Of a DNA stretch of 64,000 nt, positions 39,461 through 64,000 are shown piece after piece. Source of the DNA: Narthecium ossifragum (taxonomy: Eukaryota; Streptophyta; Magnoliopsida; Dioscoreales; Nartheciaceae). Both the position numbers and the translations under genes were made by a program. Positions within the stretch are counted from its first letter, which is position 1. Each line of letters opens with the position of its first letter. Under the pieces are notes generated by a model. That model was not told the origin of the DNA and did no database searches. It saw only the letters and a list, made by a program, of their open reading frames with translations. The stretch is from positions 24,942,145-25,006,144 of the forward strand of contig OY986971.1 of assembly GCA_963920575.1 (NCBI GenBank). The letters run 5' to 3'.

Positions 39461-40142
39461 ATGAAGAAAAAACCTAGATAGGAGGAGTCTAATAACCTTG
39501 TATGCTTGTAAATGATATGAATAGATAATTAAGCAATTAAATAGAAGGATAGAGGAGAGTTAGAGAGATTGCACCAGAATTTTTATAGTGGTTCGGCCAA
39601 CTATGCCTACGTCCACTTCTCTCAAGGCACTCCTTGAGGTTTCACTACTTGCAAGACCTCTTACAAGCTTCCCACCAAGCTTACAGGTGATTGACAACCT
39701 ATCCACCAAGCTTACGGGTGCTTGGTAACTTTACAATCTCTCCAATCTCACTATTAGATCTCTCTCACAAAGTCTACTTCACACTTGAAGTAGTTTTACA
39801 AAGGTTTAGCTCACAAATAAAGAAAATAAAACTTGCTAGAATATTATCACAATAATCCCTTAGCTCCCCCTAAGTCCTTGGCAAGTTTGCTGGACTTTCT
39901 CTTTTATAGTTGAGCTTCCAACCCTTCCAAATAGCCTCCCAACGACTATTTCTTTCTCCTGCAACGGCTCTTTAACGGCTCTTTTCTGGGCTCACGGTCG
40001 ACCGTCGCATCCTCCGTCACGCCTCACGGTCGACCTTCGCATCATCCGCCAGGCTTTCCTTGAGCCACGGTCAATCCACCTATCAACCGTCACGCCTCAC
40101 GGTCGACCGTCCCATCGACCGTGACATCGTCCGTCAGGCTGT
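39461..40142 (-). mobile_element. SIRE-type copia 3' LTR, first piece (antisense)
   Basis: Read on the minus strand this matches the copy at 63.2-64 kb: the GAACCACTATAAA-type block, the CCTTGAGAGAAGTGGACGTAG block, and the palindromic ACGGTCGACCGT words (39,990-40,140). It continues at 53,460 after a 13-kb insertion: the CCGTCAGG/CTCTGT junction matches the unbroken order at 63,870. The outer (left) end is truncated near 39,461. Confidence 0.65.
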
Positions 40143-40401
40143 CGCGATCCAACTGCCCATCTCGATCCTCTCCGATCGAGCTCCGATCTTCCGATCGAGA
40201 ACGCCTATGAGAATCTAATCAAACACAAATTTCAATCAGAGGCCGTGTGTGTACATCGCGGGTGTGGAACCAACCGTCAAGGCGCAATTTATCAAATTGC
40301 CCTTGGGGTCTTCGCGATCAACCCGATCGCGGAACAAGGCCAAACGGGCTAGACCCTCGACCTAACGCGGTCGGACCGGGTTGGAGGAGCTGGTCCTCAC
40401 A
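40143..40401 (-). mobile_element. Truncated gypsy LTR (family X), antisense
   Basis: Minus-strand reading starts TGTGAGGACCAGC at 40,401 and keeps only the first ~260 bases of an LTR similar to families A, B and D (the AAGGGCAATTTG..AAATTGCGCC block). The rest is lost at the junction with the SIRE LTR. Confidence 0.65.
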
Positions 40402-40840
40402 ACCTATCACCCTTAAAGGAATTTCGTCCCGAAATTCGACAAGGGTAGGGTCGGAAATGAGAAAGCAAAAGCAACCACACCTGCACAAGACAAAAAGGTC
40501 AGCAAGCTCACTACCTGAGCGACCACACAAACAAAGGGCACCAACGCCCACAACAACTACAAAACATAGGAGACATGCCTGGGGGTGAGAACCACTTGGG
40601 ACACTGTGCACACGCGCCCCCAGCGCTCCCAAGTCACACTCCACAACACCTATGCACCTCTAGAGGACTGACACGAACGAAACTGTCTTGTCTCTTGAGA
40701 CTGGTCTCTCCTGTCAAGAATCTGAACTGACTGTTCTCTTGTGCAATGTATCTGGTCCGAGCTCAATCATCACCTCTGATGATTCTGGACGAAACTGAAT
40801 GACGTCTCCTTGGCACCTCCGCTGCCAAACTAACTGGACC
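40402..40840 (-). mobile_element. 3' interior of gypsy element X with purine tract
   Basis: Next to the LTR the minus strand reads GGGACGAAATTCC, then TTTAAGGGTGATAGG, the usual end of gypsy chromovirus interiors. A degenerate frame (about 40,840-40,318) with stops follows; I cannot place it within Pol. GGACC at 40,836-40,840 is the left target duplication of solo LTR B. Confidence 0.55.
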
Positions 40841-43800
40841 TGTGATAAGACTTGAAAAGTGTCGTAGTCTTAACAAGTCTGCTCAAAATTACAAATTTAT
40901 AATTAAACTACTAACTAACTACTTTAAGGGTAGATAGCAGTGAATCCGAGTCGAATCCACAGGGAATGAGTAGGAAGATAATTAAACTACTAAACTCAAT
41001 CTAAGTTTTCCTACCGATAAGTTGATAAAAGATTTAGGATTGAAATTAAATTAAGTTTATACTAAATGATTAATAAATACGAGAAAAGATACCATGGAGT
41101 TCTTAATCAGTAACGAAGGTTCTACCAAGTCTTCCTAAGATCAGGGCATGCAAACACGATGAATGGCTTTCTAATAGTTGATAAGTGAATGGCTAATTCT
41201 CCTTATCACTCAACAAGTTCTGTTTAGGATTCCTTGTTGGCAAAAACAATTATCTAATTATCAGTGACCGAATGATTAGTTACGTTCACTGCTAATGAAC
41301 CCTCTTATTAGGATGAGTTCATCGCAAGGAGTAGTGTTGATATGGATTTAGGTGTAAGATCAAGATGGGTTTAGCATCTTGATGGCCAAATCTACAAAAG
41401 TAGGATGCATGAAGGATTAGGGATGGAACGTAGTGGGACTAGCACTATACAATCCCTAACCACGAAGAAGATTTCATCCGAGATACCATGGGACTAGCAT
41501 GGTCCTCTTATTTGGATGAATCCAATCCAAGCCCTAGCATACACAAGCTCCGGAATCAAGTGCAAACAAGAACAATCCAAACATCTAGCAATAAATCGAC
41601 ACCAAGGTATAAAAGAAAATAAAAATCAATCCATATAAGCCAAACAATCATGTATACAAGCCCTAGATCTCATAAATCCATAATAGAAATCTTAGTTACA
41701 TCATAAGAATCCCATGGTAAAAAGTTAGCTACTCATCTTTAGGGTTTGATCCATAGATGAAGGTTGATGAAGCTCTTCCGCCATGGATTTCCTCCCAAAG
41801 ATCTATAAATAAAAGTTAAAAAGAAGAAAGAAATTGTTCTCCCTCTCCAAGAGAGAAGAAAGACCCTCAAAAACCCTAAAAGATGCCTATTTATAGCCTA
41901 GGTATCCACCTTAACTCGGATTAGATCTTGGCCCTTGATTTTGCTTGATAAATATCAAGGAAACGGTCATTTTCGAGTCCGATCGATCGAACTATGAGTG
42001 TCCGATCGATCGGGTGAATAAAAATCGTCAATTTCTCACTTTTCCCGAGTCCGATCGATCGAACTCTGGGTGTCCGATCGATCGGACTCCGTAGGAGGGA
42101 TAGCTGGATCGATCGGTAGGTGAATAGCTGAAAAAATATACTTCTGTGAGGTTTCTGCATAGTCCGATCGATCGGACCCTTCAGCGTATTTACTGCTTGC
42201 CATCCAGACTGCGCCATCAGTACTAAAATTGCCGTAACTTCCTCTAGGAAACTCGAAATCATGAACCGTAAAATTCTCCAGAAACTAGACTTCAAGAGCT
42301 TTCCAACCATATATGGCACACCATCTGGTTCTTCTGGAGCAGGTACAGGTTAATTTTTAAAGCCAATCCATTTTCATTCCTTTGCTCCTAGCATGTCTTT
42401 ATTTGTCCGTTTTAGCACCAAACATGATCTAATCGTCATTGAAGGCTCTTATACCTGAAATACATCATAGACTATCAAAATAGCATTGCTCGGAGACTAA
42501 CGAGACCTAGTTGAAAGGGTGATTTGTGCACTTTTCAAGTCTTATCAACCTGTCACACCCCGACCCAGAAAACCCATCCAGGACGGGGCGTGAGGGTTCC
42601 TATCACTATACATCTTCAAATCGGCGCGATACAAAGCGGAAAAGACGGATAAATTAAACAATTGCATTCCAGAGGCGAACAGATTCAGTTATAATATATC
42701 ATCAAGTTGTACAGTTCAGATTTAATACAAAAGCTCCCAAGAGACAGATTTATACAAAAATCCCAAAGGTTCTCAAAATGTTTATAACGTCACATATATA
42801 TATAAAAAATGTACAACGGATCATCCTCCAGCAACCTAAAGCGCCTCTGGATGTACTCGCGCCGCCCAAGGCCGATCCTGCCGGCTCCACTGACGAAGAA
42901 CTGCCGCCTGTATTTGCAAACGCAGCCCGGGTAGGAGTGAGTGATAAGCTCAGTAGGGTTCTACTCTACGGCACACTGAAGGGAGGAAAACAACAACAGT
43001 GTTGTCTCCCAGCTTAAGTCTAACGGATGCCACGGGTCCCATAACCCAGTTGATGTCCCAAGGGCTCCTGTCATGAAACCTCTCTCCTGAACATGTCACC
43101 AGGAGGCCAAGGAACAGTAACATGCAGAATCACCCTTACCCAAGCTGGAATACCAAGCCTTGGGGAACCACGTCGGGAATGTATCAACACCCATCCTTAG
43201 CACTTGGCTTTGGAAGACAACACGACCTCTAAACCTCAAATACTGATTCAAGTCAACTATCGCAATCCTCAATCACAAGAGATTCAAATGATACAAGATC
43301 ACACCCTACTCCTGACTACCCATCCACGGCCCTAAGGCTAGATCCGAGCTACCCGAGACCCTCGGATCGGCGACCCAAACCATCTCCCACCTAACCTCAA
43401 ATGCCTCTAATGCACACAATGCATGGGCCTAGGCAAACATCTATCCTAGATGTCTCTATATGCCACATCATCAGTTACAAGTCCAACAGATATACAATAG
43501 CCCTCGACACTCGCCGGCAAGAGGCTAAGGTTCCACAATTTCTCATTAACTAGCACTCATAGCTAGTTAATGGCTAAGCAATCAATTAAGCATCTAACTA
43601 CAATCGTACATGTATTTAAATGCAAACAAGCCGTAACTTCACCCAAAAAGGGGGTTACCCGAATCAATACTCAAACCTGATGAAAATCCTTTGAAAACTT
43701 CATGAAATCCACCTACATACTCCCCAACATATTTAGATACTAATCACCCATCAAAACCATCCAAGAAATACCAGAAAACCAAGTTCAAAGGGTCACGGAC

Positions 43801-44973
43801 GATGTCACGGTCGATCCGGAGATCGATCGTGAGACCACGGACGATGTCACGGTCGATCCGGCGATCGACCGTGAGACACATACGAAGAAAACCAAGGGCG
43901 ACGGTCGATCCACCCATCGACCCTGAGAAGCCCAAAACCGAACAGCGCCTGACGGTCGATGCGACGGTCGATCCAACGGTCGACCGTCAGGTAAAAGGCA
44001 AAAAGAAAAGATCCCACGGTCGATCCATGCATCGACCCTGGGAAGCCAAAATCGCGACAGAGCCCGACGGTCGATCCGACGGTCGACCGCCAGGCCCAGA
44101 AAGCGTAAAACAACACTCGACGGTCGATGCACCGATCGACCGTCGAGTCCTTGGCACAGTTCATCAGAACAGTGCCGAAAATCCATTTCCTTGAATTTCA
44201 AGGATCAAATCAAGTTGGAATAAGATGAAATTTTGCGAGCAATCGTATTTAGGAATGAGGAAGCTAATGGAATGAAGAAATCCAGCTTTTGACGGTTAAA
44301 TCTCCTATCTAGGTCCAAATGGACAAAAACTGACAAAACGGCGATAATACGGAAACCAACCGTTAGAATACGGAAAATGCGAGGTAGGAATACTTCAAAT
44401 CCTTCGTACTACATGCACAAAGAGTTACATAGCATTCTAACATGTATTCCTACAACGAAAGCACATAAAACCTATCCTAGGAGAACCCGATCCAAGGATC
44501 GAGATAGAAACACCTACTTGAGCAAGTAGGATAGCCCCTCCACGCGCCCCACCAGCCGAGCCGCCAAGATCCGAGCTCCGAAGACCAAGTCTCCAAACCC
44601 TAGCTCAGCCGAAGGAGAGAGAGAGAGAGAGGAGAAAATGACAGGAGAAGAAGAGAAGGAAAGAGAAGAAAGAGACAGGCCGTATATAGAAATTCCAAAT
44701 CTATCTCAGCCGTCCGATTCGATCTTTCCCGATCGAGCTCCGATCCTCCGATCGGATGCACCCTAGGGGTTCTAATCAAACACATACATCAATCAAAGTC
44801 TGTGTGTGGAACGCGGGTGTGAAACCGACCACCAAGGAGCATATTTACCAAAATGCCCCCGGGGTCCAAACATCCACACGATCGCCCGATCGTGCCCGAC
44901 GCGGAACCAAACCAACAGGAAACCGGCTCTCGACCCACGTGGTCGAGTCAGGTCTGAGGGACGGGCCCTCACA
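40841..44973 (-). mobile_element. Solo LTR of gypsy family B, split by another solo LTR
   Basis: GGACC flanks both ends (40,836-40,840 and 44,974-44,978). The LTR begins TG at 40,841, is interrupted after two bases by the element at 40,843, resumes TCACACCCCGACC, and ends GGGCCCTCACA. Net length is about 2,423 bp. It carries a run of hairpin-forming palindromes (43,807-44,152) and a GA microsatellite near 44,617. No internal gypsy sequence remains. Confidence 0.85.
40843..42547 (-). mobile_element. Solo LTR with 19-bp inverted ends (TGATAAG family)
   Basis: ACCTG flanks both ends (40,838-40,842 and 42,548-42,552). The left end TGATAAGACTTGAAAAGTG and the right end are perfect inverted repeats of 19 bases, much longer than the usual few bases of LTRs. 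On the minus strand it resembles the LTR at 59,476 at both ends (GATTTGTGCACTTTTC side; the wheat-like CTGTGGATTCGACTCGG side). It contains GATCGATC pairs 23 bp apart (41,981/42,004 and 42,053/42,076). Confidence 0.85.
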
Positions 44974-44978
44974 GGACC

Positions 44979-45545
44979 TTTGTGTCATGTCATCCGAAAG
45001 GGCACTCTGTCGCCAACTGCGAACTCCAATGGCTGTCACCTCTGATCTATGCAAACCCTCTGTCACCCCGACTTGATCCATGCTGATCCTCCGGGGATCG
45101 GGTGACGATATCTGGATCGATGTCTAACGTCTCTGCAAAGTCTGCCCAACAAGCCGGAGAACAACATGGGAAGTCATCATAGGCCTCAAATGGGGTAACG
45201 TCGATGCTGAGCTGTCAACTGCTGAAGTAGGCAAACTCCACCATTGAACGTGATCTTGCCATCTGACATCTGCATCAATGATACGTGCTCTAAGCACGTC
45301 ACCAGGGATCTGAATGGTCCTCTCTGACCGTCTGTCTATCTGTGCCGCGAGATCCTGTGCTAACAGCTAACAAAAAATGGCCATGGGCTCCTGAGAGTTG
45401 TACTAGAGTCTGTCTGTGAATCTGGAATTTCGATCTAAAATGATGGAAGTTGAACTATCATGCAATCTGATCACCTCTCTGAGGACTGTATGATGATATC
45501 TGAAATGGTGGGTGATGTCTCCACAGCCTCTGTCGAACAATCGGA
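44979..45545 (-). pseudogene. Gypsy integrase fragment of element X
   Basis: Minus-strand frames with stops and shifts contain degenerate versions of the chromovirus integrase: SIILDRNSRF, RRSERTIQI (normally QSERTIQ), LVEFAY, TPFEAY and SPACWA blocks in order, then a TAIGVRSWRQ-like piece of the segment after the core. It is the same element as 40,402-40,840, cut by solo LTR B. Many CpG-type changes indicate age. Confidence 0.7.
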
Positions 45546-46855
45546 TGCACGACGCGAACCGCTGTAATGCACCTCGGCTACTGTAGCTACAGTAACACCT
45601 TTAAGAGCCCCCATTCTCCTCTTCTTCTCTGCTGGTTTTTCTTCTCTTCCCCGGCTGCCGTGACCTTCCTCTTCCCTTCTTCACTTCCGTTCTCTCTTCT
45701 CCGGCCACCAAATCAAGTGCTTGAGGGCTTGTTGGATTCGTGGAAGCTTGAGGAAGATCTGTGGCATAATTTGGAGCTGGATTAGTGGCTGATTAGCGTG
45801 GTTTCAGCCGAGGAAAAGCGTATTAAGGTAGGTTTCTTATTTAAGGTTTGATTAGGGTTGTTAGTCTTTGTGTTTGATTGTTCTTGAGTTAAAATATGCT
45901 AGATGGTGTGTTATGGCTTGCTTGACACCTGATTGAAGTTTGGTAGGAATTGGATTTGATTTGATATGGATTTAAGCATGTTTTTCATCACTTGATTTCC
46001 GGATTTTCTGTTCTAGCAGAACAGTGGTGTTCTAGCTTATTTTCCAGCTTCTACGTGCATGATCTGAGTTAGATTTCTAAATGCAAGTTGTAGATCTATG
46101 TGTTAGCTTTCAGTGCCAACTGGTTTCATGATTTTTGGAGCAACGTATAATTTTTGGTGAATTAAGTAAGCAGACTGTACTGAAACAGGGCAGCTGGTTT
46201 AAAGTGAGGATTTAAGTGGTTTTTATATATTTAATTGAGCTGATTTTTGGAGGGGATGATCTTAGTGATATTTAGGCGTGATCTGGAAAGTTTGGTTTAA
46301 ATCCAATTTATTTTTGAAGGGATTTTAATTGGGTTTATCTAATCTGAGATTTAACCGAAATTATATGTTTTGATCTATTTTCGTTTATCCGATCGATCCA
46401 GTTTTTGGATATGTGATTCGGGGTATGTCGTTGAGTAGGTATCTCAAGTTTCACATCAATCGGACGGTTGGATTGAAAGATATGATTTTCTGAAGTTATC
46501 AAGATCATTTGCTTTAATATTGATAAATCTAGTTTTTCGATATTATCTTAGATATATTATTATTATATCTGTTTAAGCCCGTGCGTGGCTTGTGGTTGAA
46601 CCAGGGGAGCTGCGTCTCCCTTGGGATGTGTAGAATAAATGGGCTTTACGTTCGCCCTAAGCTTTGAATATAATATTATTATATTGCTATCATAGTTGTT
46701 GATAGTTTAGCTGGGGTTGCTTCCCATTGTAAGCATGAGTGCCCTTCTATCTGTTTTATTCTAGATTGATGCTATGCATACCCTTAGCCGGGCTGTGTGC
46801 TACGCCTGGTCCTGTGTAATGCTTGGCATATTGGTGCATGCCTGAACTGCTGTTA

Positions 46856-49319
46856 TGTCGCGCCCCGACCCGCAGAGCGCACCCGAGCCGGGACACGAGG
46901 GGGGAAAAAAACGAACACCACAACCACTAGCCTCAACTGGCGGAAACAGTTGAGACTAAGGCCCAGCTGGCGGAAACAGCTGGACAGCACAGAGAAAGAG
47001 CGGAAGCAAGCTACTAAACCACAACTATTAACATTTATTACAAAGACGGTAATAAAAGAGTTAACAGAGTTTAGTACAGCAAACCACAAGGGATCAACAG
47101 TCCCCAAAAAGAGACTGCAACACCCACCGGGGTCTCCGCGAAGGCACACACGAACCCATCCTGACCCTCAGACATGGTCAGAATCCGGCCCGCTGCCACG
47201 AGACGACCGAGGGGCTAACACTGGGACAGAGCGGACACCTGCACCTGCAACAAACACAGTCCAGGTAGGCATGAGCAACAGCTCAGCAGGGTCCTACTCT
47301 ACAACTCCCACACACACACGAGGGTAAAGCAACCGGACACACTCTGATGCCAAATGCCGAGGCTTGCCAAGGATCCCACAATCCCATCAATAACCCGAAG
47401 GGTTCCTGTCCTAGGTGCGTATCTCCGATAACGCCACTGCTCAGGGGTGGGCAACTCCGACATTCCCTGACACAGGGTGGACACGACGCAACCAGTAGGA
47501 CCCCCTTCTCCAAGCGGGATCTCCGCACTTGGCGGAACGACCGAGGTTAAGACTACCACCTCTCAGTACTCCAAGCCACAGAGCCAACAAGACCCCTAAC
47601 TCCTGACCCAAGGACTAAGTCTAGCCATGGAGTCCATCGATCCCATCGATGTCTCCCCCCCCCAGGGTTCCTGTCCAACGTACGTCCCTCCGATAACCAC
47701 TGCTCAAGGACTGGGCTACCTCCGACGGTCCTTGACACAGGGTGGGCCGGATGATACTTGTAGGACACCCTTACCGGGGTAACGGCATCCCACGCTTAGT
47801 CCTAGATCACCGGAGTCCACGGGTCAACCCCACCCAGTCTAACCTCGCATGTCTAATGCACAGGAAACAGGGCAGGATATTAAATAAAGCAGTAGCAAGT
47901 AACACAGCAAAGGCACACCTTCGGCCCATTTATTCTAAGCACTCCCGAGGATCATGACTTCCTCGGTTCACCATAAAGCGATAAAAAGGGCATAACCCAT
48001 GGCCCAGCTATACTAAGCATTCCCGAGGGTTCATTACTCCCTCGGTTAACCACAAAGCAGTAAACAAGAAGCATGATAGGCAGCATGTTAAGCCCCGAGG
48101 GCAAAACCGACAAAACCACTTGCAGGCGAAGCCCCGCGGGCAAAACTCTTGAAAACCCTCTCTGCTACTGAAGGATCGATCCTCACCAAGGGAAGGATCG
48201 ATCATCCAAGCAACAGTGAGCTTCCCTCGCTGTCGAGCCAAAGAAGATCGATCATTCCTCCCAGGGAGATCGATCTCTTTGGTGACAGAGGGCACCCTTC
48301 CAGTCGCACCAGGGAAGATCGATCCTTCCTCCCAGGAAGATCGATCATTCTCGGGACGAAGGGTAACCATGCTTACCCAGGCCCCATGATCGATCTCCTC
48401 CCATAAGAAGATCGATCATGTGCTGGGCGCAGCAAGCCCACACCAGAGGACCGATCCTTCCTCCCAGAAGGATCGATCACCCAAAGATGGGTTCCGGCGT
48501 GCTTCCGGCCGGAGAACCGCCGGAAAACACAACCAAACCCCACCAAACTTGGTGGGTTGGTAGATCTGAGTACAACGAGGCTACTCAAGGCCTCAAAACC
48601 GGGAAAGAACAACTCCACAAGGAGATCTAAGCAAAACAAAACCCGGCTACGAAACCCTCAAACAGCCGGAGTTTAGAAGAAGAACCCTACCTCCTCAGAG
48701 CAGCTTCGATCCACGAAAACTAGCCATGGATCTTCCTCGTCTCGCCACGAACCCAACGAGCCTTCAAGCTCCAGGAGAGGTGGCCGGAGGAGGAAGAACG
48801 GAGGAGAGAAAGGAGCGGTCGGAACAGGGGAAGAAGCAGAGCATTCGCGGGAAAGAAGAAGAAGAGGGGAAGGAAGGAGGGGGAGGGGAAGGGGGTGAGG
48901 CCGGGGAAAGCCGGAGAAACCGCGGGAAAGGCAAAGGAGGGGAGCAAAAGTCTCCCCTCCCCTGACAGGGGAAGCGACGGCCACCGCGGTGGCCGTCCTT
49001 CGAAAGCCACCGACAAAGACTTCCAGGCACACGCATGATCGATCATCCTTGCATGCGGGATCGATCTTGCTAGCCACAGGATCGATCTCCACCCATAGGT
49101 GATCGATCTTCTGAGCCCTGAAAGACAAACTTGGGCTGGGACACAAGCCCAAGTCCAGAACCCCCAACCTCGGGTCCTCCTAACCTTTCTAACAACCACA
49201 AGCACCAAGCAAGGCCTGTGTGTGCACAGCCAGTGTGAAAACGACCGCCAAGGCGCAATTTCCCAAATTGCCCTTGGGGTAAACAACAAGCCAAAGGGAT
49301 GGAGGGACGGGTCCTCACA
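46856..49319 (-). repeat. 3' LTR of the family A element
   Basis: It begins TGTCGCGCCCCGACC and ends GGTCCTCACA on the plus strand. GATCGATC pairs lie at 48,174-48,478 and a run of four cores at 49,037-49,108. Frames inside (for example 85 and 120 codons) come from the repeated motif and are not genes. Confidence 0.92.
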
Positions 49320-49401
49320 TCCTAAAACCCTTAAAAGAAATCTCGTCCTCGAGATTCGATCAAAGTAGGGCTCGGAAAAGAAAACAATGCCTAGCAAGAT
49401 G

Positions 49402-49806
49402 CTACAAAGCGGTAACTGTACCTCTGGAGACGGGTGGTGCTACGGTCACCGAGAGCGGGTGCTGAGACAGGTACTCCTGATAGGACGGCTGCACCTCGTC
49501 TGCGTAGGGGCGGTCAGGTAAGGCGAACACCTGACCTCCGCTGCGGCCTGGCCCGGCTCCACCTCTCTGACCCTGCCCAGCCCGGGACCCTCCGTCTCGA
49601 CCTCCTGATGGCGCCGCACCCCGTGCGTTCCATCGCGGACAGTCCCTGCGGATGTGCCCTGGCTGCCGGCAGTGAAAGCACAGCGCTGGCCCACGCTCGG
49701 ACTGCTGAACTCGGCCTCCCTCCCGAGAAGTCTGCTGTGCGGGCCCCGCCGTCAAAAGAAGCTGGTCACCCTGGAATGCGGCGATCAGTCTCCTGATCTC
49801 CTCTCC
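49402..49806 (-). pseudogene. Gypsy Gag fragment with zinc knuckle
   Basis: The minus frame includes EEIRRLIAAFQGDQ, a Gln/Gly/Arg-rich linker, CFHCRQPGHIRRDC (CX2CX4HX4C) and a Gly/Arg-rich basic tail. Only the C-terminal quarter of Gag is present; the matrix and capsid parts are absent. The frame is open for 148 codons, but its start lies in LTR-like sequence (49,808-49,912), so it is a fusion by deletion. Whether it is translated is unknown. Confidence 0.8.
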
Positions 49807-49807
49807 A

Positions 49808-49912
49808 AGTGGTACATGTCCAAGGTACGTCCCTCCGACAGCCACTGTTCAAGGATTGGACTACCTCCGACGATCCCTGACACAGGGTGGACAAGACGAT
49901 ACCAATAGGACA
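49808..49912 (-). repeat. LTR-derived segment inside the family A interior
   Basis: It closely resembles 47,680-47,767 of the LTR (CCGACAGCCACTG..CAAGGATTGG against CCGATAACCACTG..CAAGGACTGG, then the TGACACAGGGTGG block). It lies between the Gag piece and the primer-site leader. Confidence 0.75.
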
Positions 49913-50146
49913 CCACCTCTCTGAGAGCTCTGGCATACCGTGCCGCCATCAGCACCAACAAAAGAAACACGAGTACCACTCGTCACAAGCCGCAAAACAA
50001 GCAGCACAACAGAAAGCGGAAGAAGAAACAATCACATTCAGCGGAAAAGAAAGCAAGCAAACAGGGATGTTCTAACTCTAGAACTACCCCAACCCATGCA
50101 CGTCTCCGCAGAGACCCGATCCAACACCCTGGGATCTACAACCTAT

Positions 50147-50158
50147 GCTCTGATACCA
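50147..50158 (-). other. Primer-binding site, tRNA-Met type
   Basis: On the minus strand TGGTATCAGAGC lies a few bases after the 5' LTR, the standard initiator tRNA-Met site of plant LTR elements. Confidence 0.9.
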
Positions 50159-50161
50159 ATC

Positions 50162-53459: not shown

Positions 53460-53788
53460 CTCTGTCTGGAAAACCGTTTCCCACGGTCGATACATCGATC
53501 GACCGTCGCACCCTTTGAGCCAAGTCACATAGGCCACGGTCGATCGGTCCATCGACCGTTACATCGACCATCGCCTATTTTCCCTTGTTTAGCTTCCGCG
53601 GTCGATCCTTCCATCAACCGCCATATCCCACGGTCGATCCATGCATCGTCCGTCGCATCGACCGTCAGTACAAAAACTCATTAAATATGATTTTAATGCT
53701 TTCCAAATTAAGGGATAATAATATTAAATCATTATTTTATCATCAATTTTATATTGACATCATCAAAACAATATCTGGGCTAACAATC
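53460..53788 (-). mobile_element. SIRE-type copia 3' LTR, second piece (antisense)
   Basis: Read on the minus strand the LTR starts TGTTAGCCCAGATATTG at 53,788, directly after a purine tract CAGAGGGAGAT (53,789-53,799), the signature of SIRE-type elements. Four CGGTCGAT-N6-ATCG hairpins lie at 53,484-53,650. It joins 40,142 across the 13-kb insertion. Confidence 0.75.
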
Positions 53789-53883
53789 TCCCTCTGTTTG
53801 ATGATGGCAACCTTTTAAATTATGATGATAAAACCTTGAAGGCTCCCTCTTAATTTGTGCATCCATTTACCTCATAGAATATG
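53789..53883 (-). other. 3' interior of the SIRE-type element next to its purine tract
   Basis: The minus strand reads a short AT-rich stretch, then GCCATCATCAAACAGAGGG, the typical prelude to the SIRE LTR. It continues at 55,332 beyond the inserted solo LTR. Confidence 0.6.
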
Positions 53884-55326: not shown

Positions 55327-55331
55327 ATATG

Positions 55332-55884: not shown

Positions 55885-56323
55885 TTATCCTCCTTTAAAT
55901 ACCTTGCGCCTCCACTTGTCAATTTTATTTTCTTTTATATCGAAGGTAGTTAGACAAAGATGTGCAGTTTCTTTTTCTTCTTCTTCTTCGGAGGTGGAGC
56001 TCGAGTCACTTTCTTCCTTGGCCTTCTTCTTCTTCTTTGAAGTTTTCTTGAGCTTTGGACAATCCGACATGTAATGTCCGGGCTTCCTACACTCATAACA
56101 AGTAATTTTATTTAAGTAAGAAGAGGAGTTTCCTTTTTCACCTTTGGAATTTCTCTTTCCCTGATTCTTGATGATTCGTTGGATTCTTCTTGTGATCTTT
56201 TGCATCTCCTCATCATCATCTTCATCACTTGAGTCGGATGAATCCGTGTATGTTGACTTGAAAGCAATGGTTTTCTTTTTCTTCCTTTCTCCATCATTGC
56301 TCCTCTCCATGTTCATCTCATAT
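55885..56323 (-). pseudogene. SIRE-type Gag, C-terminal part
   Basis: The minus frame is rich in Lys, Ser, Asp and Glu. It has a coiled, charged stretch and the zinc knuckle CYECRKPGHYMSDC, then a poly-Lys and poly-Glu region. It joins 58,548-59,209 in sense and topic across the inserted LTR, with the two parts abutting at a tyrosine position. Confidence 0.8.
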
Positions 56324-58542
56324 TGTGAGGACCCGTCCCTCCATCCCTTCGGCTTGTTGTTTACCCCAAGGGCAATTTGGGAAATTGCGCCTTGGCGGTC
56401 GTTTTCACACTGGCTGTGCACACACATGCCTTGCTTGATGGTTGTGTTTGTTAGAAAGGTTAGGTGGACCCGAGGTTGGGGGTTCTGGGCTTGGGCCCGA
56501 GTCCCAGCCCAAGTTTGCCTTTCAGTGCACAGAAGATCGATCACCTTGGGGTGAAGATCGATCCTGTTGCTAGCAGGATCGATCATGCATGCAAGGATGA
56601 TCGATCCTACGTGTGCCTGGAAGTCTTTGTCGGTGGCTTTCGAAGGACGGCCACCGCGGTGGCCGTCGCTTCCCCTGTCAGGGGAGGGGAGACTTTTGCT
56701 CCCCTCCTTTGCCTTTCTCGCGGTTTCTCCGGCTTTCCCCGGCCTTACCCCCTTCCCCTCCCCCTCCTTCCTTCCCCTCTTCTTCTTCTTTCCCGCGAAT
56801 GCTCTGCTTCTTCCCCTGTTCCGACCGCTCCTTTCTCTCCTCCGTTCTTCCTCCTCCGGCCACCTCTCCTGGAGCTTGAAGGCTCGTTGGGTTCGTGGCG
56901 AGGCGAGGAAGATCCGTGGCTAGTCTTCGTGGATCGAAGCTGCTCTGAGGAGGTAGGGTCTTCTTCTAAACTCCGGCTGTTTGAGGGTTTAGTATCCGGG
57001 TTTTGTTTTGCTTAGATCTCCTTGTGGAGTTGTTCTTTCCCGGTTTTGAGGCCTTGAGTAGCCTCGTTGTACTCAGATCTACCAACCCACCAAGTTTGGT
57101 GGGGTTTGGTTGTGTTTTCCGGCGGTTCTCCGGCCGGAAGCACGCCGGAACCCATCTTTGGGTGATCGATCCTTCTGGGAGGAAGGATCGGTCCTCTGGT
57201 GTGGGCTTGCTGCGCCCAGTACATGATCGATCTTCTTATGGGAGGAGATCGATCATGGGGCCTGGGTAAGCATGGTTACCCTTCGTCCCGAGAATGATCG
57301 ATCTTCCTGGGAGGAAGGATCGATCTTCCCTGGTGCGACTGGAAGGGTGCCCTCTGTCACCAAAGAGATCGATCTCCCTGGGAGGAATGATCGATCTTCT
57401 TTGGCTCGACAGCGAGGGAAGCTCACTGTTGCTTGGATGATCGATCCTTCCCTTGGTGAGGATCGATCCTTCAGTAGCAGAGAGGGTTTTCAAGAGTTTT
57501 GCCCGCGGGGCTTCGCATGCAAGTGACTTTTTACGATTTTACCCTCGGGGTTTATCCTGTAATGAATTATGTATGAATGCTCATCGCTTTGTGGTTGAAC
57601 TGGGAGGGTGATGCCTCCCAAGTGTGTAGAATAAATGGGCTGACGGTATGCCCTTACCGCTTTGTGGTGAACCGAGGGAGTCATGACCCTCGGGAGTGTT
57701 TAGTATAAATGGGCCGAAGGTGTGCCCTTGCTGTGTTGTTTGTTTACGGCTTTATCATACTTATCCTGCCCTTTTTCCTGTGCATTAAACATGCTAGGAT
57801 AGGTTGGGTGGGTGTTGACTCTGCTGCTTAGAGTACCGAGTGATGGTAGTCTTAACTTCGGTTGTTCCGCCAAGTGCGGAGATCCCGCTTGGAGAAGGGG
57901 GTCCTACTGGTTGCGTCGTGTCCACCCTGTGTCAGGGAATGTCGGAGTTGCCCACCCCTGAGCAGTGGCGTTATCGGAGATACGCACCTAGGACAGGAAC
58001 CCTTCGGGTTATTGATGGGATTGTGGAATCCTTGGCAAGCCTCGGCATTTGGCATCAGAGTGTGTCCGGTTGCTTTACCCTTGTGTGTGTGGGAGTTGTA
58101 GAGTAGGACCCTGCTGAGCTGTTGCTCATGCCTACCTGGACTGTGTTTGTTGCAGGTGCAGGTGGCCGCTCTGTCCCAGTGCTATCCCCTCGGTCGTCTC
58201 GTGGCAGCGGGCCGGATCCTGACCATGTCTGAGGGTCAGGATGGGTTCGTGTGCGCCTTCGCGGAGACCCCGGTGGGTGTTGCAGTTTCTTTTTGGGGAC
58301 TGTTGATCTCTTGTGGCTTTTGTACTAAACTCTGTTAACTCTTTTATTACCGTTTTTGTAATAAATGTTAATAGCTGTGGTTTAGTAGCTTGCTTCCGCT
58401 CTTTCTCTGTGCTGTCCAGCTGTTTCCGCCAGCTGGGCCTTAGTCTCAACTGTTTCCGCCAGTTGAGGCTAGTGGTTGAGGTGTTCGTTTTTCCCCCCCT
58501 CGTGTCCCGGCCCGGGTGCGCTCTGCGGGTCGGGGCGCGACA
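56324..58542 (+). mobile_element. Solo LTR of gypsy family A, sense, inside SIRE gag
   Basis: CATAT flanks both ends (56,319-56,323 and 58,543-58,547). It starts TGTGAGGACCCGTCC and ends CGGGGCGCGACA, the reverse orientation of the copies at 46,856 and 50,162. It is 2,219 bp, about 245 bp shorter than those. The GATCGATC array is present (56,530-56,610 and 57,160-57,475). It splits the Gag frame. Confidence 0.92.
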
Positions 58543-58547
58543 CATAT

Positions 58548-59209
58548 GTCATGAGAGAACCCATTAGCTCATCAAGGGACAGCTTGGTTAGATCTTTAGC
58601 TTCTTCGATTGCCGTCACCTTGGGATCCCATGACTTAGGTAGACACCTAAGAACCTTTCTCACTTTCTCATCATTAGTATAGCTTTTACCAAGAGAATCA
58701 AGAACATTTATAATATTGGTAAAGCGAGTAAACATTTCATTTATATTTTCATCATCCTTCATAGAAAATAACTCATAGTCATTAACAAGCATGCTAATCT
58801 TAGACTCCTTTACTTGGCTAGTTCCTTCATGAGTTATCTCAAGCTTCTCCCATATTTCCTTAGCCGATTTACAAGCTGAAATTCTATTGAATTCATTTGG
58901 GCTAAGGGCACAAAATAAGAAATTTTTGGCTTTGGTATTGACTTGCAAATTTTTCAAATCAGTACGGGTAAGCTCACTCTTAGCCTTAGGCACTTCCTTC
59001 CCTTCATGAATTTTGGTAGGAATAGTTGGGTCATCCTCAATAACCATCCATGCTTCATAATCCATGGATTTTATAAATATTTCCATCCTATTCTTCCAAT
59101 ATGTATAGTTTGAACCATTGAAGTATGGTGGCCTATTTGTGGATTTTATAAATATTTCCATCCTATTCTCACTACACGGATCGCTTAGATGAGCTTTAAT
59201 CTTGTTCAA
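58548..59209 (-). pseudogene. SIRE-type Gag, N-terminal part
   Basis: The minus frame encodes the copia Gag (UBN2-like) domain: RPPYFNGSNYTYWKNRM near the start, then AKEIWEKLEITHEGT, INEMFTRFTNIINVLDSLGK and LSLDELMGSLMTY at the break. It is open over about 220 residues. A 29-bp direct duplication (59,066-59,094 and 59,141-59,169) repeats part of the N-terminal coding sequence. Sequence to the right belongs to a different element, so the promoter and 5' LTR are lost. Confidence 0.85.
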
Positions 59210-59475
59210 GTGCTTTGAAGTGTTTGAATGATGCTATTGATGGAATTATTCGCTTGCATTTTACTTGTGCTATGGGTTGATGGATGGAGCTATGCATTTG
59301 AATCTATGTGTGCATATGAATGAATTTTGATCGTATAAGAACCAAAGCTTTATGAGAAGTGACTAATTGTTGATGGGGGGATTGCTCTTTTTGAGTTTTT
59401 TATTTCTTCTCTTTCCCTTCTAGTTATTTTTCTTTTGCTTTGCTCGAGGACTAGCAAAGTTCAAGTTAGGGGGTG
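59210..59475 (+). mobile_element. 3' end of a TGATAAG-family element with purine tract
   Basis: A 3' interior piece, T-rich, ends CTCGAGGACTAGCAAAGTTC and the purine tract TTAGGGGGTG (59,466-59,475). The same arrangement precedes the LTR at 11,191. The rest of the element is missing to the left. Confidence 0.65.
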
Positions 59476-61031
59476 TGATAAGACGTGAAAAGTGCATAAA
59501 TCACCCTTTTAACTTGGCCTTGTTAGTCTCCGAGCAAGGCCTTACTGATGGGTTTTACCCTATTACAGGTACAAGTGCCCTCAACGAGGATTGAATCAAG
59601 TTCCGAGCTTAAACGATGTCATTCGGGCCAGTTTTTATGAAGAAGATCGATCCTGTATTGATGAAGGATCGATCCTTTGAAGTGCTTTAAGAAGGAGCCA
59701 ATCAGGACAACAAGGATCGATCCTATGGCATGAGAGGATCGATCATTTTTGCGTATTTTCCCAGTGACAGAACGCAAGTTCTAGAGGATCGATCTTCACA
59801 CACTGGAGGATCGATCTTCATCGGGGCGCAGCCAGAATTCAAGAAGTAAAAGATCGATCCTTTTCTTGTGGAGGATCGATCCTTCACGGGACCAGCGATC
59901 ACACGAAGCGCATGATCGATCCTCCACCCTATGAGGATCGATCCTTTGGTGCCAGCCGAGCAAAATCAATGGCCCAGATCTAATCCGAGTGGGGGAGGCT
60001 TGTTTACTATAAATAGACCCCTTAGGAGGGATTTTGGGGGGTCTTCTCTTAGTCTTCTCCAGCCCTTCTAGGTTCTTACCCAATTGAGAGGAGGACTTTT
60101 TGGAGGGAATCCATGGGAGGGGAGCTTCATCAACCTCCATCCATGGATCCAACCAAGATGAGTAGCTAACTTCCTATCTCTTGGGATTTCCATGTAGTTG
60201 TAGGATTCTTTTGTAGTTTTCCTAGGGTTTTTGATGTGTAATCTTTGGGATTGATCTATTGTATGGATTTGAGCTTTATTTTCTTATCTTTGTACATGGA
60301 TTTCATATGTTGAATGGATGAATGCCTTTCTTTGGTATGAGTTAGGACTTGTGCATGATAGGTGTTTGTTGTATTGCTCCAATGAGTTGGATGTGCTAGA
60401 AACACATCCAATGACATTGGGAGGATTACTAGCCCTAGATTAGAGATTAGGGATGCTAGAACCATCCCTATCTCTCTAATCAAAGGATCCATTCTATCTT
60501 TCTCTTGCATTGGATTCGAGGTGCTAGAACCATCTCGATCCAATGCCCGACTCCATGCAATATCTTTTTCTTGCGACGAATCGATCTTAATCGAAGGTTC
60601 GTTAGCGACGATAGAAGCTAATTACTCATTCGTCGACTTTGTGAATGTGATTATTTCCGGCGGATGATCCTAAACCGACTTCCGTTGAGCGATAAGTGAG
60701 GCTAACCACCCGCTTGTCGACTTCTTGATTTCGATCGTCCCGATTGGATTACACACCTTAATTCCTTAGGAGGCTACATTAGAACCTACAATGAAATGGA
60801 AATCCCAAGACCTCTCTATATTAGTTATCTTTCTTTTCACTTAGTTAATTACTTTAATAGTCATTAATCCAAAATCCAAATCATTTTAGCTAGTTGTTTG
60901 GAGTTATCTATCGAGTACGTTAGTCATTTCTAATTTCCCTGCGGATCGACCCGGACTCCCGCTAGCTACGTAGTAGTTAGTAGGATTCGGTATAAATTGT
61001 AATCTTTGACGCACTAGTCACTTTCAACGAC
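59476..61031 (+). mobile_element. LTR of the TGATAAG family, sense
   Basis: It starts TGATAAGACGTGAAAAGTGC. The 3' part has CCTGCGGATCGACCCGGACTC, as does the solo LTR at 40,843 in reverse. The end is truncated near 61,031 at the next LTR. Five GATCGATC pairs, each with exactly 22 bp pitch, lie at 59,645-59,943. The frame of 118 codons across them is an artefact of repeats. Confidence 0.75.
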
Positions 61032-61039
61032 GAGTGGTT

Positions 61040-63075
61040 TGGGTTGCGTCAGACCTGTCCCTCTACTCCTGGGTCGACCGGCTGGGTCGGACCCGTGGCT
61101 CGTTTGTTTGCTTCGCGTCGAGCGCGCGATCCGGTGGATCATATTATTTCTTGGACCGCAAGGGCAATTTGGTAAATTGCACCTTGGTGGTTTGTTTCAC
61201 ACCCGCGTGTGCACACACTGACCTTGTTTGTGTTAGTGCTTGATTAGAATGGTTAGGTGGATCCGGGATCTGAAGATCCCAGCTCGGGCGCGCAACAGCC
61301 CGTTTTTGGGCTGCTGGCGGCCCTCGAGCGATTGATCGCTCCTTGAAGCGATCCCTCCTTGGAGCGATCGATCGGACTCGTGAGCGAGTCGGTGGGTTCT
61401 TTTGACCCGTTCGGATCGATCCAAGTGTTTTGGATCGATCCAACCTGTCTCGGATCGATCCGACTTGGTGTTGGATCGATCCAACCTGTCTTGAATCGAT
61501 CCGACTTGGTGTGGGATCGATCCGAACTGGCTTTTCTTTCGCGAGCGATCGATTGCTCCTTGGAGCGATCGATCGTTCCTTGGAGCGATCGATCGGACTC
61601 GGCGTCGGTGGCTTTTCTGCTTCGAGAGGACGGTCGTCGTTGGCCGTCGCTCTCTCTTGTCAGAAGTGGAGGACTTTGCCTCCCCTCCTTCTCCTTTTTC
61701 CCCCTTCTCCCGGCTTTCCCTTCCCCTTTTCCCTCCTTTTCTTCCTCTTCTCCTCCTCCTCCTCCTTTCTTCTTCCTTCTTCTTTCTTCTCTCGCGGCTC
61801 TGTTTTCTTCCCCTATTTCCGGCAGCCATCTTCTTCTCCTCCGTTCTCCCTCCTCCTGCCACCGTTTTGAGTGTTCTAAGGCTCGTTGGATCTGTGGCAA
61901 CTAGAGGAAGATCCCTGAAGTAGTTTGGAACCTTGTTGCTGACCAATTCGCGGGGAATCAGCCGAGGAGTGTGTTTCGGGTAGGTTTCTATCTACTGATG
62001 TTGTTTTTGGGTTTTCTCTAGATCTAGCCGTTAAATCTTTGTGTTGTTAGATTCCTCATGCTTAGTAGAATTTCTGGTATAAATTTCATAAGCTTTGGTT
62101 GAGATCTTAGTAGGATATATGCATGATTAATCTCGGATTTTCCGATTTCTGCTGTTCTTGAAGAACAGCCGGCTTACGGCGCATTTTCCGGCCAGTACGT
62201 GCATGTTCTTGGGTTGTGATGAACATAAGAGTCGTAGATCTTGGAATCAACTCTTTAACCCAACTGATTTCATATTTTTCCGATTTTCCTAAGATTTTTT
62301 ATGAATTTATTACTGGAGGGCTGCGTTGCAGCAATTAATTGGTAAGTTAGTTTGATTAACGGTTTTGATTAGTGGTTTTCCGTTAATCCAACCGTTGGAT
62401 GATTATGGATTTTGGATATGTTGATTCGGGTATGTAGATCTACTGATGGCTAAGTTGGATCTTGAATCCGATGTCATTTGAATGTCGGATCGACGGGATC
62501 AATTAGCCTCTAAGTAGAGGTTTTGGGTGTTTTGAATATAATATTATATTTCGGATTATAATATTATATTGTTTACTGTTCATCATCATTTTCGGGGTTG
62601 CTTCCCGTTGCAGGAGTCCGCGGTTGACGGTCGTGGTACCGTCGTAATGCCGGGACTCGCTGCGGATCGGCTAGCAGCGGTTGGTTGTACCGCTGCAGCG
62701 ATCCGGTTGACTTATATGCTGCTTTGACATACTGTTGCATGCCTATCTCCTGTTAGTGTATGTTCATAGCATGCATCCTCTGTTGTGCATTAGTTGCATT
62801 GGTTAGGGCGTGGGTGATCTGTGGGTCGCCGTCCCGAGGCTGGAAGCTCGGATTTAGCCCTAGGACCGGGATTGGGTAGTTTGGACCCGGTTCGAATTGT
62901 GGTGTGCAGTCAAACTTGATGATAGGCTTAGATGACTGGTACACCTGTTGCTTGATGATTGTAGAGGTCGTGTCGGCCTCGAGTCGGATGCTGAGGTGTA
63001 GCCGGTGTTCCACTGTGTTGACTCTTGAGTGGAGGAGTTGCCTACTCAGCGGTGTCTTTTCCCGCCTGCAGTGGT
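61040..63075 (+). mobile_element. Truncated gypsy LTR, family D, sense
   Basis: It lacks the TGTGAGG start and the last ~390 bases, judged against 45,563-53,459. Shared blocks include AAGGGCAATTTGGTAAATTG, the CGTCGTTGGCCGTCGC zone and CCTACTCAGCGGTGTC. GATCGATC cores in tandem with 19-21 bp pitch lie at 61,414-61,522, and GAGCGATCGATC words at 61,330-61,600. Frames of up to 237 codons inside are low-complexity by-products. Confidence 0.65.
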
Positions 63076-64000
63076 GATACGAGTCGATCCGACTCGACCA
63101 ACTGGATCCGAACCCAGAAGAGGAACCAAACTGGTTCAGCCTCTTTCCTAGTTTGACTTGGACTTCCCTAGTTCAAACTAGAGTATTTAATTAGTATTTT
63201 GATGGTCCAAGAGGGGGGTGAATTGGACTCTTTTCGAAAAACTAGATTGATGAAAAATTCAGATAGAAGGGGATCTAACAGCTAGAATGCTTGTAAACAA
63301 AATGAAACTTAACTATAATAGCATGCAAGCATTAACTGAAAGAAGAGTAAGAGAGATGACACCGATTTATAGTGGTTCGACCCAACTCTTGGTCTACGTC
63401 CACTTCTCTCAAGGCTCCCCTTGAGGTTCCACTACTTGCAAATCCCTTACAAGCTTTTCCTCCAAGCTTTCTGGTGCTTGGTGACCTTACAATCACAGCC
63501 ACTTGCTGTTTGAACAACTCTCAAGATACTTCTTCACACTTGAAGAAGGTTTACAAAGGTTTTAGCTCAAGGAGAATAAGTAGAAATCTTTCCTAGAACT
63601 TGCTCAAATGATCTCAATAATAATGATAAAAGTTGTGGCAAGTTTACATGAAGAGACTACTTATAGATGGGCTTCAACCAGCTCAACAAGAAGCCCCAAC
63701 GGCTCCCTGCAACTCTCCAACGGCTAGTTTTTTTTACTCTGCGCGCTCCTGGCGGTCGATCCGTCCATCGTCCGTCACGTATAAAAAACTCAGCCTCTTT
63801 GGTCGACGGTCGATCCACGCATCGTCCGTCGCTTTCACGGTCGACCGTGACATCGACCGTCACATCGTCCGTGAGCCTCTGTTGAGAAGATCGCTTCCCA
63901 GGGTCGATGCTCCGATCGACCGTCGCTCCTTGAGTTTTCTTCATGTATGCGCCACGGTCGACCGCCGCATCGACCGTCGCATCGACCGTCGCATCGACCG
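63076..64000 (-). mobile_element. SIRE-type copia LTR, antisense, running off the window
   Basis: From about 63,195 it matches 39,461-40,142 (GGTTCGACC, CCACTTCTCTCAAGG, CTTGAAG..TTTACAAAGG blocks) and then 53,460 on (CTCTGTTGAGAAG..CGTTTCCC-like junction). Minus-strand CAATTCACCCCCCTCTTGG near 63,210-63,230 marks the usual 3' end of SIRE LTRs. Stem-loop palindromes fill 63,750-64,000. Sequence at 63,076-63,190 is unassigned. Confidence 0.6.

Follow-up and report, generated by a model that had tools for sequence, protein, structure and literature searches.

Arrays of TCGA-centred palindromes in gypsy and copia LTRs of Narthecium ossifragum, candidate regulatory DNA shared across retrotransposon superfamilies

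Introduction

Why do the LTRs of several retrotransposon families in a single genome carry dense arrays of the same short palindromes at set distances from each other? The question is raised by a 64,000-nucleotide stretch of the Narthecium ossifragum genome (contig OY986971.1, positions 24,942,145 to 25,006,144), referred to here as the window, in which a preliminary description had reported self-complementary cores in at least five LTR families and had proposed that they serve as a binding platform for a host factor, as a structured leader RNA, or as a target that attracts or deflects silencing. Palindromic LTR arrays were earlier seen as a peculiarity of Sireviruses (PMC2829016); here, two geometries are found over gypsy and copia elements in one genome.

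Results

Sites matching G[AG]TCGA[TC]C number 89 between positions 39461 and 64000, where 100 dinucleotide shuffles gave 1.69 on average and never more than 5, and 13 between positions 1 and 39460, against a mean of 1.02 and a maximum of 4 in the same number of shuffles; GATCGATC is the most frequent 8-mer of the window. Twelve of the 13 sites in the first part lie within a solo LTR of gypsy family A (19987-22382), and the remaining one, at 5946, is the one GATCGATC of an imperfect inverted repeat in a LARD-like repeat (about 5926-5957, arms read by eye). The most frequent gaps between sites in the window are 22 bp (25), 49 (9), 21 (8), 50 (5), 40 (4), and 12 bp (4). These peaks and the shuffle counts bear out the earlier claim of set pitches beyond composition, and base composition as the sole cause is ruled out by the excess of 89 sites over a shuffle maximum of 5. 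In a random 80 kb, consisting of the first 20 drawn positions, all within the initial 22 Mb of contigs C1-C13, 24 of 29 sites were inside or at most 150 bp from sequence matching the window LTRs, and site density at such matches was about 55 times that elsewhere. The arrays are thus located within LTRs, as had been described, and motif density is not equal outside them.

Two geometries were distinguished: pairs of GATCGATC 21-23 bp apart in gypsy families A and B and in the TGATAAG family, versus units of the form GGTCGA-N8-TCGACC in SIRE and gypsy family D. Among 126 GATCGATC pairs, a set limited to distances of 19-24 bp, the distance is exactly 22 bp in 67 and 21-23 bp in 115, and the spacing of the SIRE/D units, a set that leaves out the self-palindrome GGTCGACC, is kept in 30 of 31. 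Neighbouring pairs are separated by 49-50 bp, which is not a whole number of helical turns, and phasing of a whole array on one helix face is ruled out on this account. In the fetched loci L001-L024, gaps peaked at 22 (42), 23 (22), and 21 bp (17), and also at 14 bp (24), the last because the fetching pattern itself imposed it. Loci L001-L004 were cut at search matches; L005-L024 were 20 places hand-picked from 49 and are therefore biased towards motif-rich loci, as are the family A conservation figures given below.

As claimed before, at least five families carry these cores in the window, namely A (three insertions, four LTRs), B, D (copy D1), TGATAAG (R1 and R2), and SIRE (S1, S2, and S3). 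Family A comprises the solo LTR A1 (19987-22382, minus strand, target-site duplication CGTGA), with GATCGATC sites at 21278-21582 (10) and 22141-22170 (2); element A2, flanked by the target-site duplication TGTTA, with a left LTR (46856-49319, minus strand) bearing arrays at 48174-48478 and 49037-49108 and a right LTR (50162-52627, minus strand; taken from 50164 in the computations) bearing arrays at 51482-51786 and 52345-52416; and the solo LTR A3 (56324-58542, plus strand, target-site duplication CATAT; taken to 58545 in the computations), with arrays at 56535-56606 (4 sites) and 57164-57468 (9 sites, in hairpin units about 72 nt apart). The family B LTR (61052-63075, both ends approximate, plus strand) has its array at 61366-61594. 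Family D, assigned to gypsy from an SH3_Tf2-1 domain and a Ty3 PDB match upstream of the D LTR in locus L060, includes D1 (42551-44973, minus strand), with a GGTCGA-N8-TCGACC array at 43794-44150, and the D-like LTR D2 (45541-53459, plus strand), consisting of pieces at 45541-46855 and 52628-53459 with A2 between them, which has a single GATCGATC and no array.

Of the TGATAAG LTRs, R1 (40843-42547, minus strand, target-site duplication ACCTG) has a GATCGATC array at 41981-42173 and a TATA motif at 41887-41896, and R2 (59476-61045, 3' end approximate, plus strand) has five GATCGATC pairs of 22 bp each at 59645-59943 and a TATA motif at 60007. SIRE is present on the minus strand as LTR pieces S1 (39461-40140), with CGGTCGACCG-type sites at 39994-40110, and S3 (53460-53786), with a GGTCGA/TCGACC array at 53485-53667, and as the LTR S2 (63190-64000), which continues past the window and has its array at 63754-64000. 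S2 shows five sites before running off the window and S1 three complete G[AG]TCGA[TC]C sites, counts that cover non-degenerate copies. A gag domain of copia type (PF14223) lies at 55885-59233 together with a zinc knuckle on one strand, both left unassigned to an LTR.

The arrays of D, R2, and S2 were each matched together with their flanks at every one of the 40 loci to which scoring was limited, the window's own copy included, and in the case of S2 over 756-811 of 811 bases. For B, 21 of 40 scored matches cover the array and both flanks, at 72-83% (the window's own copy excepted). Among the scored loci, absence of the arrays from most members of their families is thus contradicted for D, R2, and S2, and for B the full span is found in 21 of 40. 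All 20 fetched D loci, one of which is the window's own, retain 4-7 unit pairs. In 19 D copies, fetched by similarity and not by motif and with the query's own copy left out, conservation was 0.926 (non-CpG) and 0.963 (CpG) in motif columns, the latter being the best-conserved class, compared with 0.704 and 0.652 in the array spacers, where misalignment may lower the values, and 0.814 and 0.828 in the flanks (p=0.0002 for the non-CpG columns). Ten aligned family A array copies each have 6-10 intact octamers, and with the near-duplicate row A3 left out (9 rows), their cores were conserved at 0.979 versus 0.808 in the spacers (second reference value 0.851). Gene conversion among array repeats could partly account for core conservation.

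With respect to the TATA motif, four arrays end upstream of it, at 84 bp in R1, 63 bp in R2 (38 bp if a stray later site is counted), 86 bp in S1, and 87 bp in S2. The D array, at about sense positions 824-1180, lies downstream of the TATA motif at 286, and the second array of A is also downstream of TATA; both probably sit in a leader intron predicted for A, B, and D (donor GTAGG, acceptor TTGCAG), whose acceptor motif is missing from D1 and from locus L048, the latter also being devoid of the donor. A pyrimidine-rich tract follows the B array and the first array of A, at comparable places.

Among the LTR families of the window, SIRE aligns to D alone, and within the array only. With the motifs masked, D1 reached 39 with S2 (maximum 24 in 40 shuffles), 47 with locus L043 (maximum 22 in 40 shuffles), and 40 with locus L023 (versus 24). 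The masked alignment is found in a single orientation only, with the D array inverted relative to SIRE. SIRE arrays hold internal repeats at about 116 bp, as seen in the S2 matches and in L043. The LTRs of A, B, and D have homologous segments in common, those of A and TGATAAG are alignable over just 34-35 bp, and for B and TGATAAG no alignment was obtained at E<=1e-5. The earlier notion of one module shared by all families therefore holds for SIRE and D; what A, B, and TGATAAG share is the site and the pair spacing.

Discussion

On balance, we lean towards reading the arrays as cis-regulatory DNA of the LTRs, composed of clustered sites with dyad symmetry around TCGA, to which one host transcription factor, or a few, would bind as dimers; both the factor and its effect on transcription are what we infer from sequence. 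Of the three roles first proposed, the binding platform appears to fit best, since conservation is higher in the cores than in the spacers and, in four arrays, TATA follows 63-87 bp after the last site. The GATCGATC pairs, mostly 21-23 bp apart, would span about two helical turns, and the 12 bp from TCGA to TCGA in GGTCGA-N8-TCGACC about one, so that the two sites of a pair would be exposed on roughly one helix face. Whether they stand upstream of TATA, as in SIRE and TGATAAG, ahead of the pyrimidine-rich tract, as in B and the first A array, or within the predicted leader intron, as in D and the second A array, the sites would boost transcription of the element, which suggests that several unrelated families exploit a shared host switch.

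Some features of the arrays speak against an enhancer: the sites of D and of the second A array are downstream of the likely start, the 49-50 bp between neighbouring pairs are not whole helical turns, D2 has no array, and D1 and L048 have no acceptor motif. On the other side, Sirevirus palindromes of the same type have been proposed as regulatory (PMC2829016).

An unlikely but not negligible alternative is that the arrays are tandem RNA hairpins, acting as structured elements of the transcript or as dsRNA substrates of Dicer-like enzymes that trigger small-RNA silencing, as suggested for the palindromes of maize Sireviruses. Windows of 72 nt with at least two sites fold better (mean z -3.3, 57% of 139 below -3) than motif-free ones (4.7% of 3,330 below -3), folding is motif to motif in 61 of the 76 pairs kept as non-redundant out of 126, and hairpins are known to be concentrated in maize Copia LTRs and to have more small RNAs mapped to them (PMC10760457). 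Orientation was unassignable for 19 of the 126 pairs, and two redundancy filters left 65 for the arm test and 38 for MFE. Outer arms of A and B match their own partner better than a foreign one (10.35 versus 6.31 and 9.31 versus 6.09), values reached in 0 of 300 permutations in either family; a plain dimer-site model leaves this complementarity outside the cores unexplained. The sense MFE was lower than the antisense one in 24 of 38 units and higher in 11, a count uncontrolled for composition and not relied on here.

Other tests of the hairpins point the other way. In SIRE/D, outer arms showed no preference for their own partner (p=0.75, with 15 units kept as non-redundant out of 31), for which reason the hairpin model was dropped for these families, and pair-specificity of the TGATAAG arms was not significant (outer 35/300; inner p=0.08); as a model for all families, hairpins fail. 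No sense-strand wobble excess was found, with 79 G.T versus 48 A.C mismatches (fractions 0.230 and 0.140, close to the foreign-arm values of 0.207 and 0.133). In one orthologous family A hairpin slot (8 of 10 listed sequences, 7 distinct rows after identical rows were collapsed), 1 two-sided pair was seen versus 1.3 in shuffles, and the covariation term was unfavourable (+3.84) when RNAalifold was run on the antisense strand of the ten family A copies; in the same ten-copy alignment, 10 of 97 pairs show a two-sided change somewhere, a figure without control. Rfam at gathering threshold had no match in 39461-64000, and structure by itself leaves one octamer across families unexplained. The structured leader RNA first suggested is unsupported, given arrays that precede TATA, the missing wobble excess, the non-specific SIRE/D arms, and two negative covariation checks.

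Rather improbable in our estimation is that the arrays have no present function and that template switching during reverse transcription makes and corrects quasi-palindromes, which tandem duplication and gene conversion then spread. The pair-specific arms of A and B without covariation in the orthologous slot fit templated correction, the repeats at about 116 bp in SIRE arrays are in line with duplication, and template switching has been reported in plant LTR elements (PMC1950507). However, one GATCGATC core is found in A/B and TGATAAG LTRs that otherwise have little or no alignable sequence, CpG columns are the best-conserved class in D motifs, and four arrays stop 63-87 bp short of TATA. Common descent of all arrays from one ancestral array, with the motif as a remnant and neither convergence nor transfer, agrees with the homologous segments of A, B, and D and with the comparable places of the first A array and the B array, but is very improbable in view of the short or missing alignments with TGATAAG, of SIRE aligning to the D array alone, and of a D array that is placed like the second array of A and yet aligns inverted to SIRE with motifs masked.

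Returning to arrays as binding sites for host factors, the masked homology suggests that an array was transferred between element classes, gypsy D appearing to carry a copia-type array, and the direction was probably from SIRE to D. A copia SIRE array would have been taken up by a gypsy D LTR, inverted, and then amplified with D; arrays able to act in either orientation could enter the D LTR in this way. A more tentative extension is that the arrays are portable enhancer cassettes that cross superfamilies, gypsy and copia elements having converged on or swapped arrays for one host dimeric factor, with the SIRE-to-D passage caught in the act. Many LTR elements would then share one transcriptional key. 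If this is true, superfamilies of retrotransposons exchange control regions as they evolve, and these regions converge on host regulators that they have in common. Since related arrays occur in two backgrounds and two orientations, they allow a direct test of transcription versus silencing.

Comparison with known systems

Repeated short sites that drive transcription are known from Tnt1, Retrolyc1, and the heat-shock sites of ONSEN, as tandem or palindromic U3 boxes upstream of the start; they are alike in their repetition and are set apart by different motifs and by their occurrence in single families. VANDAL transposons also have clusters of short motifs in their non-coding part, bound by the element-encoded VANC, which counters silencing.

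LTR palindromes of maize Sireviruses are small-RNA hotspots (Bousios et al. 2016, via PMC10760457 and PMC5311732), and attracting or deflecting silencing is a published idea for these elements (via the same two papers). They are similar to the present arrays in being clustered in the LTR control region and in folding well, but their core is CACCGGACNNNGTCCGGTG and they are copia elements; Ty3 elements are reported to have no obvious peak (PMC10760457). One palindrome common to maize Copia LTRs and Helitrons (PMC10760457) likewise recurs across unrelated transposon superfamilies in one genome and is a precedent for sharing, although it involves a DNA transposon and a different core, and the excerpt describes neither homology beyond the motif nor gypsy LTRs. 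A weak preference of insertions has been reported for palindromes (PMC6911290), a finding on single palindromes and not on arrays. Among the matches listed for GATCGATC with plant transcription factor, no title had an LTR theme. In the literature searched, partly as excerpts, no palindrome arrays common to gypsy and copia LTRs are described; the SIRE-type array is already published, and the gypsy-LTR arrays and the inverted, SIRE-homologous D array are not described there.

The closest relatives are the RM boxes of Sireviruses, dyad-symmetric repeats with a CGG-CCG signature that are clustered upstream of the TATA box in the LTR, number at least 8 copies per element, define CpG islands, and are described as Sirevirus-specific, being missing from the other copia elements compared (PMC2829016). 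Sirevirus hallmarks are the copia type, the PPT AGGGGGAG, the PBS, and an integrase signal; S3 has a PPT-like stretch that resembles, but is not identical to, this PPT. The Vitis RM consensus, CGGTCGACCG (PMC2829016), is found exactly in S1 and S2, and S3 has GGTCGA-N8-TCGACC; the CGG-CCG signature is present in S1/S2 and in D1 (ACGGTCGACCGT, GGTCGA-N8-TCGACC), and the S1 and S2 clusters lie upstream of TATA (86 and 87 bp), as RM boxes do. In contrast to RM boxes, the GATCGATC core of A, B, and TGATAAG is without the CGG-CCG signature, arrays are here also found in gypsy LTRs, and gypsy D carries one of the RM type in inverted orientation, located downstream of TATA.

Site arrays and their spacing

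The window (G000:C9:24942145-25006144) belongs to a genome of 379.4 Mb in 150 contigs, and its most frequent 8-mer is GATCGATC, with 78 copies. The interval 39461-64000 contains 89 G[AG]TCGA[TC]C sites, whereas 100 dinucleotide shuffles averaged 1.69 and never exceeded 5; composition alone does not explain the arrays. Positions 1-39460 hold 13 sites where dinucleotide shuffling predicts 1.02, and 12 of these lie in one solo LTR of the gypsy family A. The window scan found none between 22163 and 39996, a stretch that includes a further copia element (34107-37594, plus strand) with gag, integrase and reverse-transcriptase frames. At 25068-25637 on the minus strand lies part of a gene with up to 95% identity to CP24 (LHCB6), a chlorophyll a-b binding protein, from many flowering plants, which marks the DNA as that of an angiosperm.

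The preliminary description claimed fixed spacings that simple GATC-rich composition does not explain, and preferred gaps do exist: in the window the most frequent are 22 bp (25), 49 (9), 21 (8), 50 (5), 40 (4) and 12 (4), and at 24 loci outside it gaps peak at 21-23 bp, where an additional peak at 14 is an artefact of the pattern used to find the loci. Two geometries were distinguished. The GATCGATC sites of families A, B (gypsy) and TGATAAG occur as pairs, and 126 pairs, restricted beforehand to spacings of 19-24 bp, are spaced by 22 (67), 23 (24), 21 (24), 20 (8) or 19 bp (3). The arrays of SIRE (copia) and of the gypsy family D consist of GGTCGA-N8-TCGACC, with identical spacing in 30 of 31 units. 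From TCGA to TCGA these geometries measure 22 bp, about two helical turns, and 12 bp, about one turn; the pair-to-pair distance of 49-50 bp does not correspond to full turns. On balance, we favour the view that these are putative enhancer arrays of paired dyad sites in unrelated LTR lineages, moved once between superfamilies; a candidate dimeric host factor would bind the paired sites, and the arrays would act as enhancers.

Arrays across family copies and the genome

For family D, the best 40 of 3,822 first-look candidates all match 743 or more of the 751 bases over the array and its flanks, with the whole query matched in 38, and all 20 fetched loci, the window's own included, retain 4-7 GGTCGA/TCGACC pairs, 14 bases start to start. 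The best 40 of 2,546 candidates for R2, a TGATAAG LTR, match 584-585 of 585 bases, and several form pairs with 9.6-17.3 kb between members, the pattern that LTRs would give. For the SIRE piece S2, the best 40 of 3,875 match 756-811 of 811 bases. Identities, the window's own copies aside, are 87-91% (D), 95-98% (R2) and 97-99% (S2); the latter, together with 11 S2 pairs spaced 8.48-8.57 kb, one of them formed by the window's S2 and a copy just past the window, is as expected for young full-length elements. B is an older family (72-87% identity in the best 40 of 4,061, the window's own copy aside). Matches over the array and its flanks thus occur at all of the best 40 loci for D, R2 and S2; for B, 21 of the best 40 loci span the array and both flanks.

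Twenty random 4-kb stretches (80,000 bases, of which 2,061 N) contain 29 sites; 13 stretches have none, four have one or two, and three have an array. Twenty-four sites fall inside window-LTR-like sequence or no more than 150 bp from it (a zone of about 6,450 bases) and five in the remaining 73,550 bases, an unequal density, about 55-fold higher in a zone defined from the window's own LTR pieces alone, so that other LTR families are scored as outside.

Placement within the LTRs

On the sense strand, a TATA motif follows the end of the last site at a distance of 84 bp in R1, 63 bp in R2, and 86 and 87 bp in the SIRE pieces S1 and S2. ACCTG flanks the R1 LTR (40843-42547), whose terminal inverted repeats, TGATAAGACTTGAAAAGTG, are 19 bp long. 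Read by eye, a long pyrimidine-rich tract lies downstream of the B array and of the first A array. The second A array (sense 841-1145 in the solo LTR A3) and the array of the D copy D1 (about sense 824-1180) lie further downstream. CTATATAAG is found at about sense 286 in the four D loci printed, with an altered version in D1. Donor-like GTAGG and acceptor-like TTGCAG bracket this downstream part in B and in the three LTRs of A that were examined; both are present in three of the four printed D loci, with neither near that place in L048, and in D2 one lies on each of its two pieces. D1 has the GTAGG site and lacks TTGCAG. From these motifs, a leader intron is predicted in the LTRs of A (56324-58542), B (61052-63075) and D (42551-44973).

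Each of the window's four family-A LTRs has a perfect 22-bp palindrome, GACGGCCACCGCGGTGGCCGTC, beside its first array (22080-22101, 48976-48997, 52284-52305 and 56646-56667). A2 (46856-52627) is a short, probably non-autonomous element: its internal DNA, about 0.84 kb long with one zinc-knuckle piece, lies between two LTRs of about 2.46 kb each. A3 lies inside a copia-type gag region (55885-59233, minus strand) with PF14223 on one side and a zinc knuckle on the other, and has the target-site duplication CATAT.

A SIRE-type array inside gypsy family D

By sequence, D is a gypsy family, because at L060 a 135-aa frame upstream of the D LTR contains SH3_Tf2-1 (4.5e-25) and matches the Gag-Pol structure of Ty3 (1.6e-4). 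Read on the plus strand, the D1 array (43794-44150) can be aligned with SIRE arrays in their own sense orientation, and the alignment takes in the spacers. With motif letters masked, local alignment scores are 39 for S2 (maximum of 40 shuffles, 24), 47 for L043's SIRE copy (22, 40 shuffles) and 40 for a third array, in L023 (24). In reverse orientation, masked scores gave no signal beyond shuffles: 16 against 20, 24 against 24 and 21 against 23, respectively. Since the D1 sense strand is the minus strand, the array would have been taken in inverted. We infer SIRE as the donor because the motif has been published for a Vitis Sirevirus (PMC2829016), because three SIRE LTR pieces in the window carry it, and because D's relatives A and B bear GATCGATC instead. 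In L043 (1015-3204), a SIRE LTR starts about 0.5 kb past a D-type LTR match, not far from the position where D bears its own array, and such adjacency is a possible route for the transfer. At L014, a 78% match to the opening 370 bp of D1 is followed further along by a GATCGATC array.

Hairpin symmetry and core conservation

A rather unlikely alternative is that the arrays serve as RNA hairpins or in silencing. It draws on the complementarity of own arms: in 76 non-redundant GATCGATC pairs, letters beside the cores complement the own partner at 178 against 125 permuted (inner) and 150 against 113 (outer), with p=0.0005 in 2,000 permutations. Gapped 34-base outer arms score 10.35 own against 6.31 foreign in A (20 units) and 9.31 against 6.09 in B (21 units), each with 0/300 permutations, and inner arms give p=0.006 and p=0.001. 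TGATAAG arms showed no clear excess (outer 5.89 against 4.92, 18 units, 35/300 permutations; inner p=0.08). Folding z falls below -3 in 57% of windows with at least two sites against 4.7% of motif-free windows (shuffle-based), and A3 has strong hairpin windows in series at 57133, 57205, 57277, 57349 and 57421. Against it, SIRE/D outer arms showed no pair-specific complementarity (15 units, p=0.75). In one orthologous family-A slot (seven distinct rows), pairing holds for 92% of cells and drops to 41-59% on sliding, but the number of two-sided changes did not exceed that in shuffles. A ten-copy family-A alignment (antisense strand) gave two-sided change in 10 of 97 predicted pairs and an unfavourable covariation term of +3.84, and the 79 G.T against 48 A.C sense-strand mismatches, near foreign-arm values, revealed no wobble excess. 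The hairpin symmetry of A and B is therefore real, but the covariation and wobble checks do not support retention of RNA structure itself, and the leader-RNA role suggested earlier finds no backing here.

In 19 D copies retrieved by similarity, not by motif, motif columns are conserved at 0.926 (non-CpG) and 0.963 (CpG), spacers within the array at 0.704 and 0.652, and flanks at 0.814 and 0.828, with motif columns above both (p=0.0002, non-CpG comparisons). Methylated CpG usually decays fastest, which makes the conserved CpG columns in the motifs notable. In A, motif columns reach 0.979 against 0.808 and 0.851, with some bias, most loci having been chosen by motif. That the palindromes merely copy themselves and have no function seems improbable to us.

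Comparison with known palindromic arrays

In the literature examined, gypsy arrays, the GATCGATC geometry and SIRE-D array homology are not described. SIRE-type arrays are already known: 13 Sireviruses carry palindromic repeated motifs clustered upstream of TATA, called Sirevirus-specific (PMC2829016), and the palindromes have been called small-RNA hotspots (PMC5311732). In PMC10760457, hairpins are reported as concentrated in the LTRs of Copia elements, with Ty3 elements lacking an obvious peak; the authors connect them with small RNAs and with CHH methylation, and propose that regulation and silencing are in a tug of war. The same source describes one palindrome in both Copia elements and Helitrons, a precedent for a palindrome common to different superfamilies. 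Within these sources, therefore, the SIRE part of the putative enhancer arrays is known and their sharing between superfamilies has a precedent.
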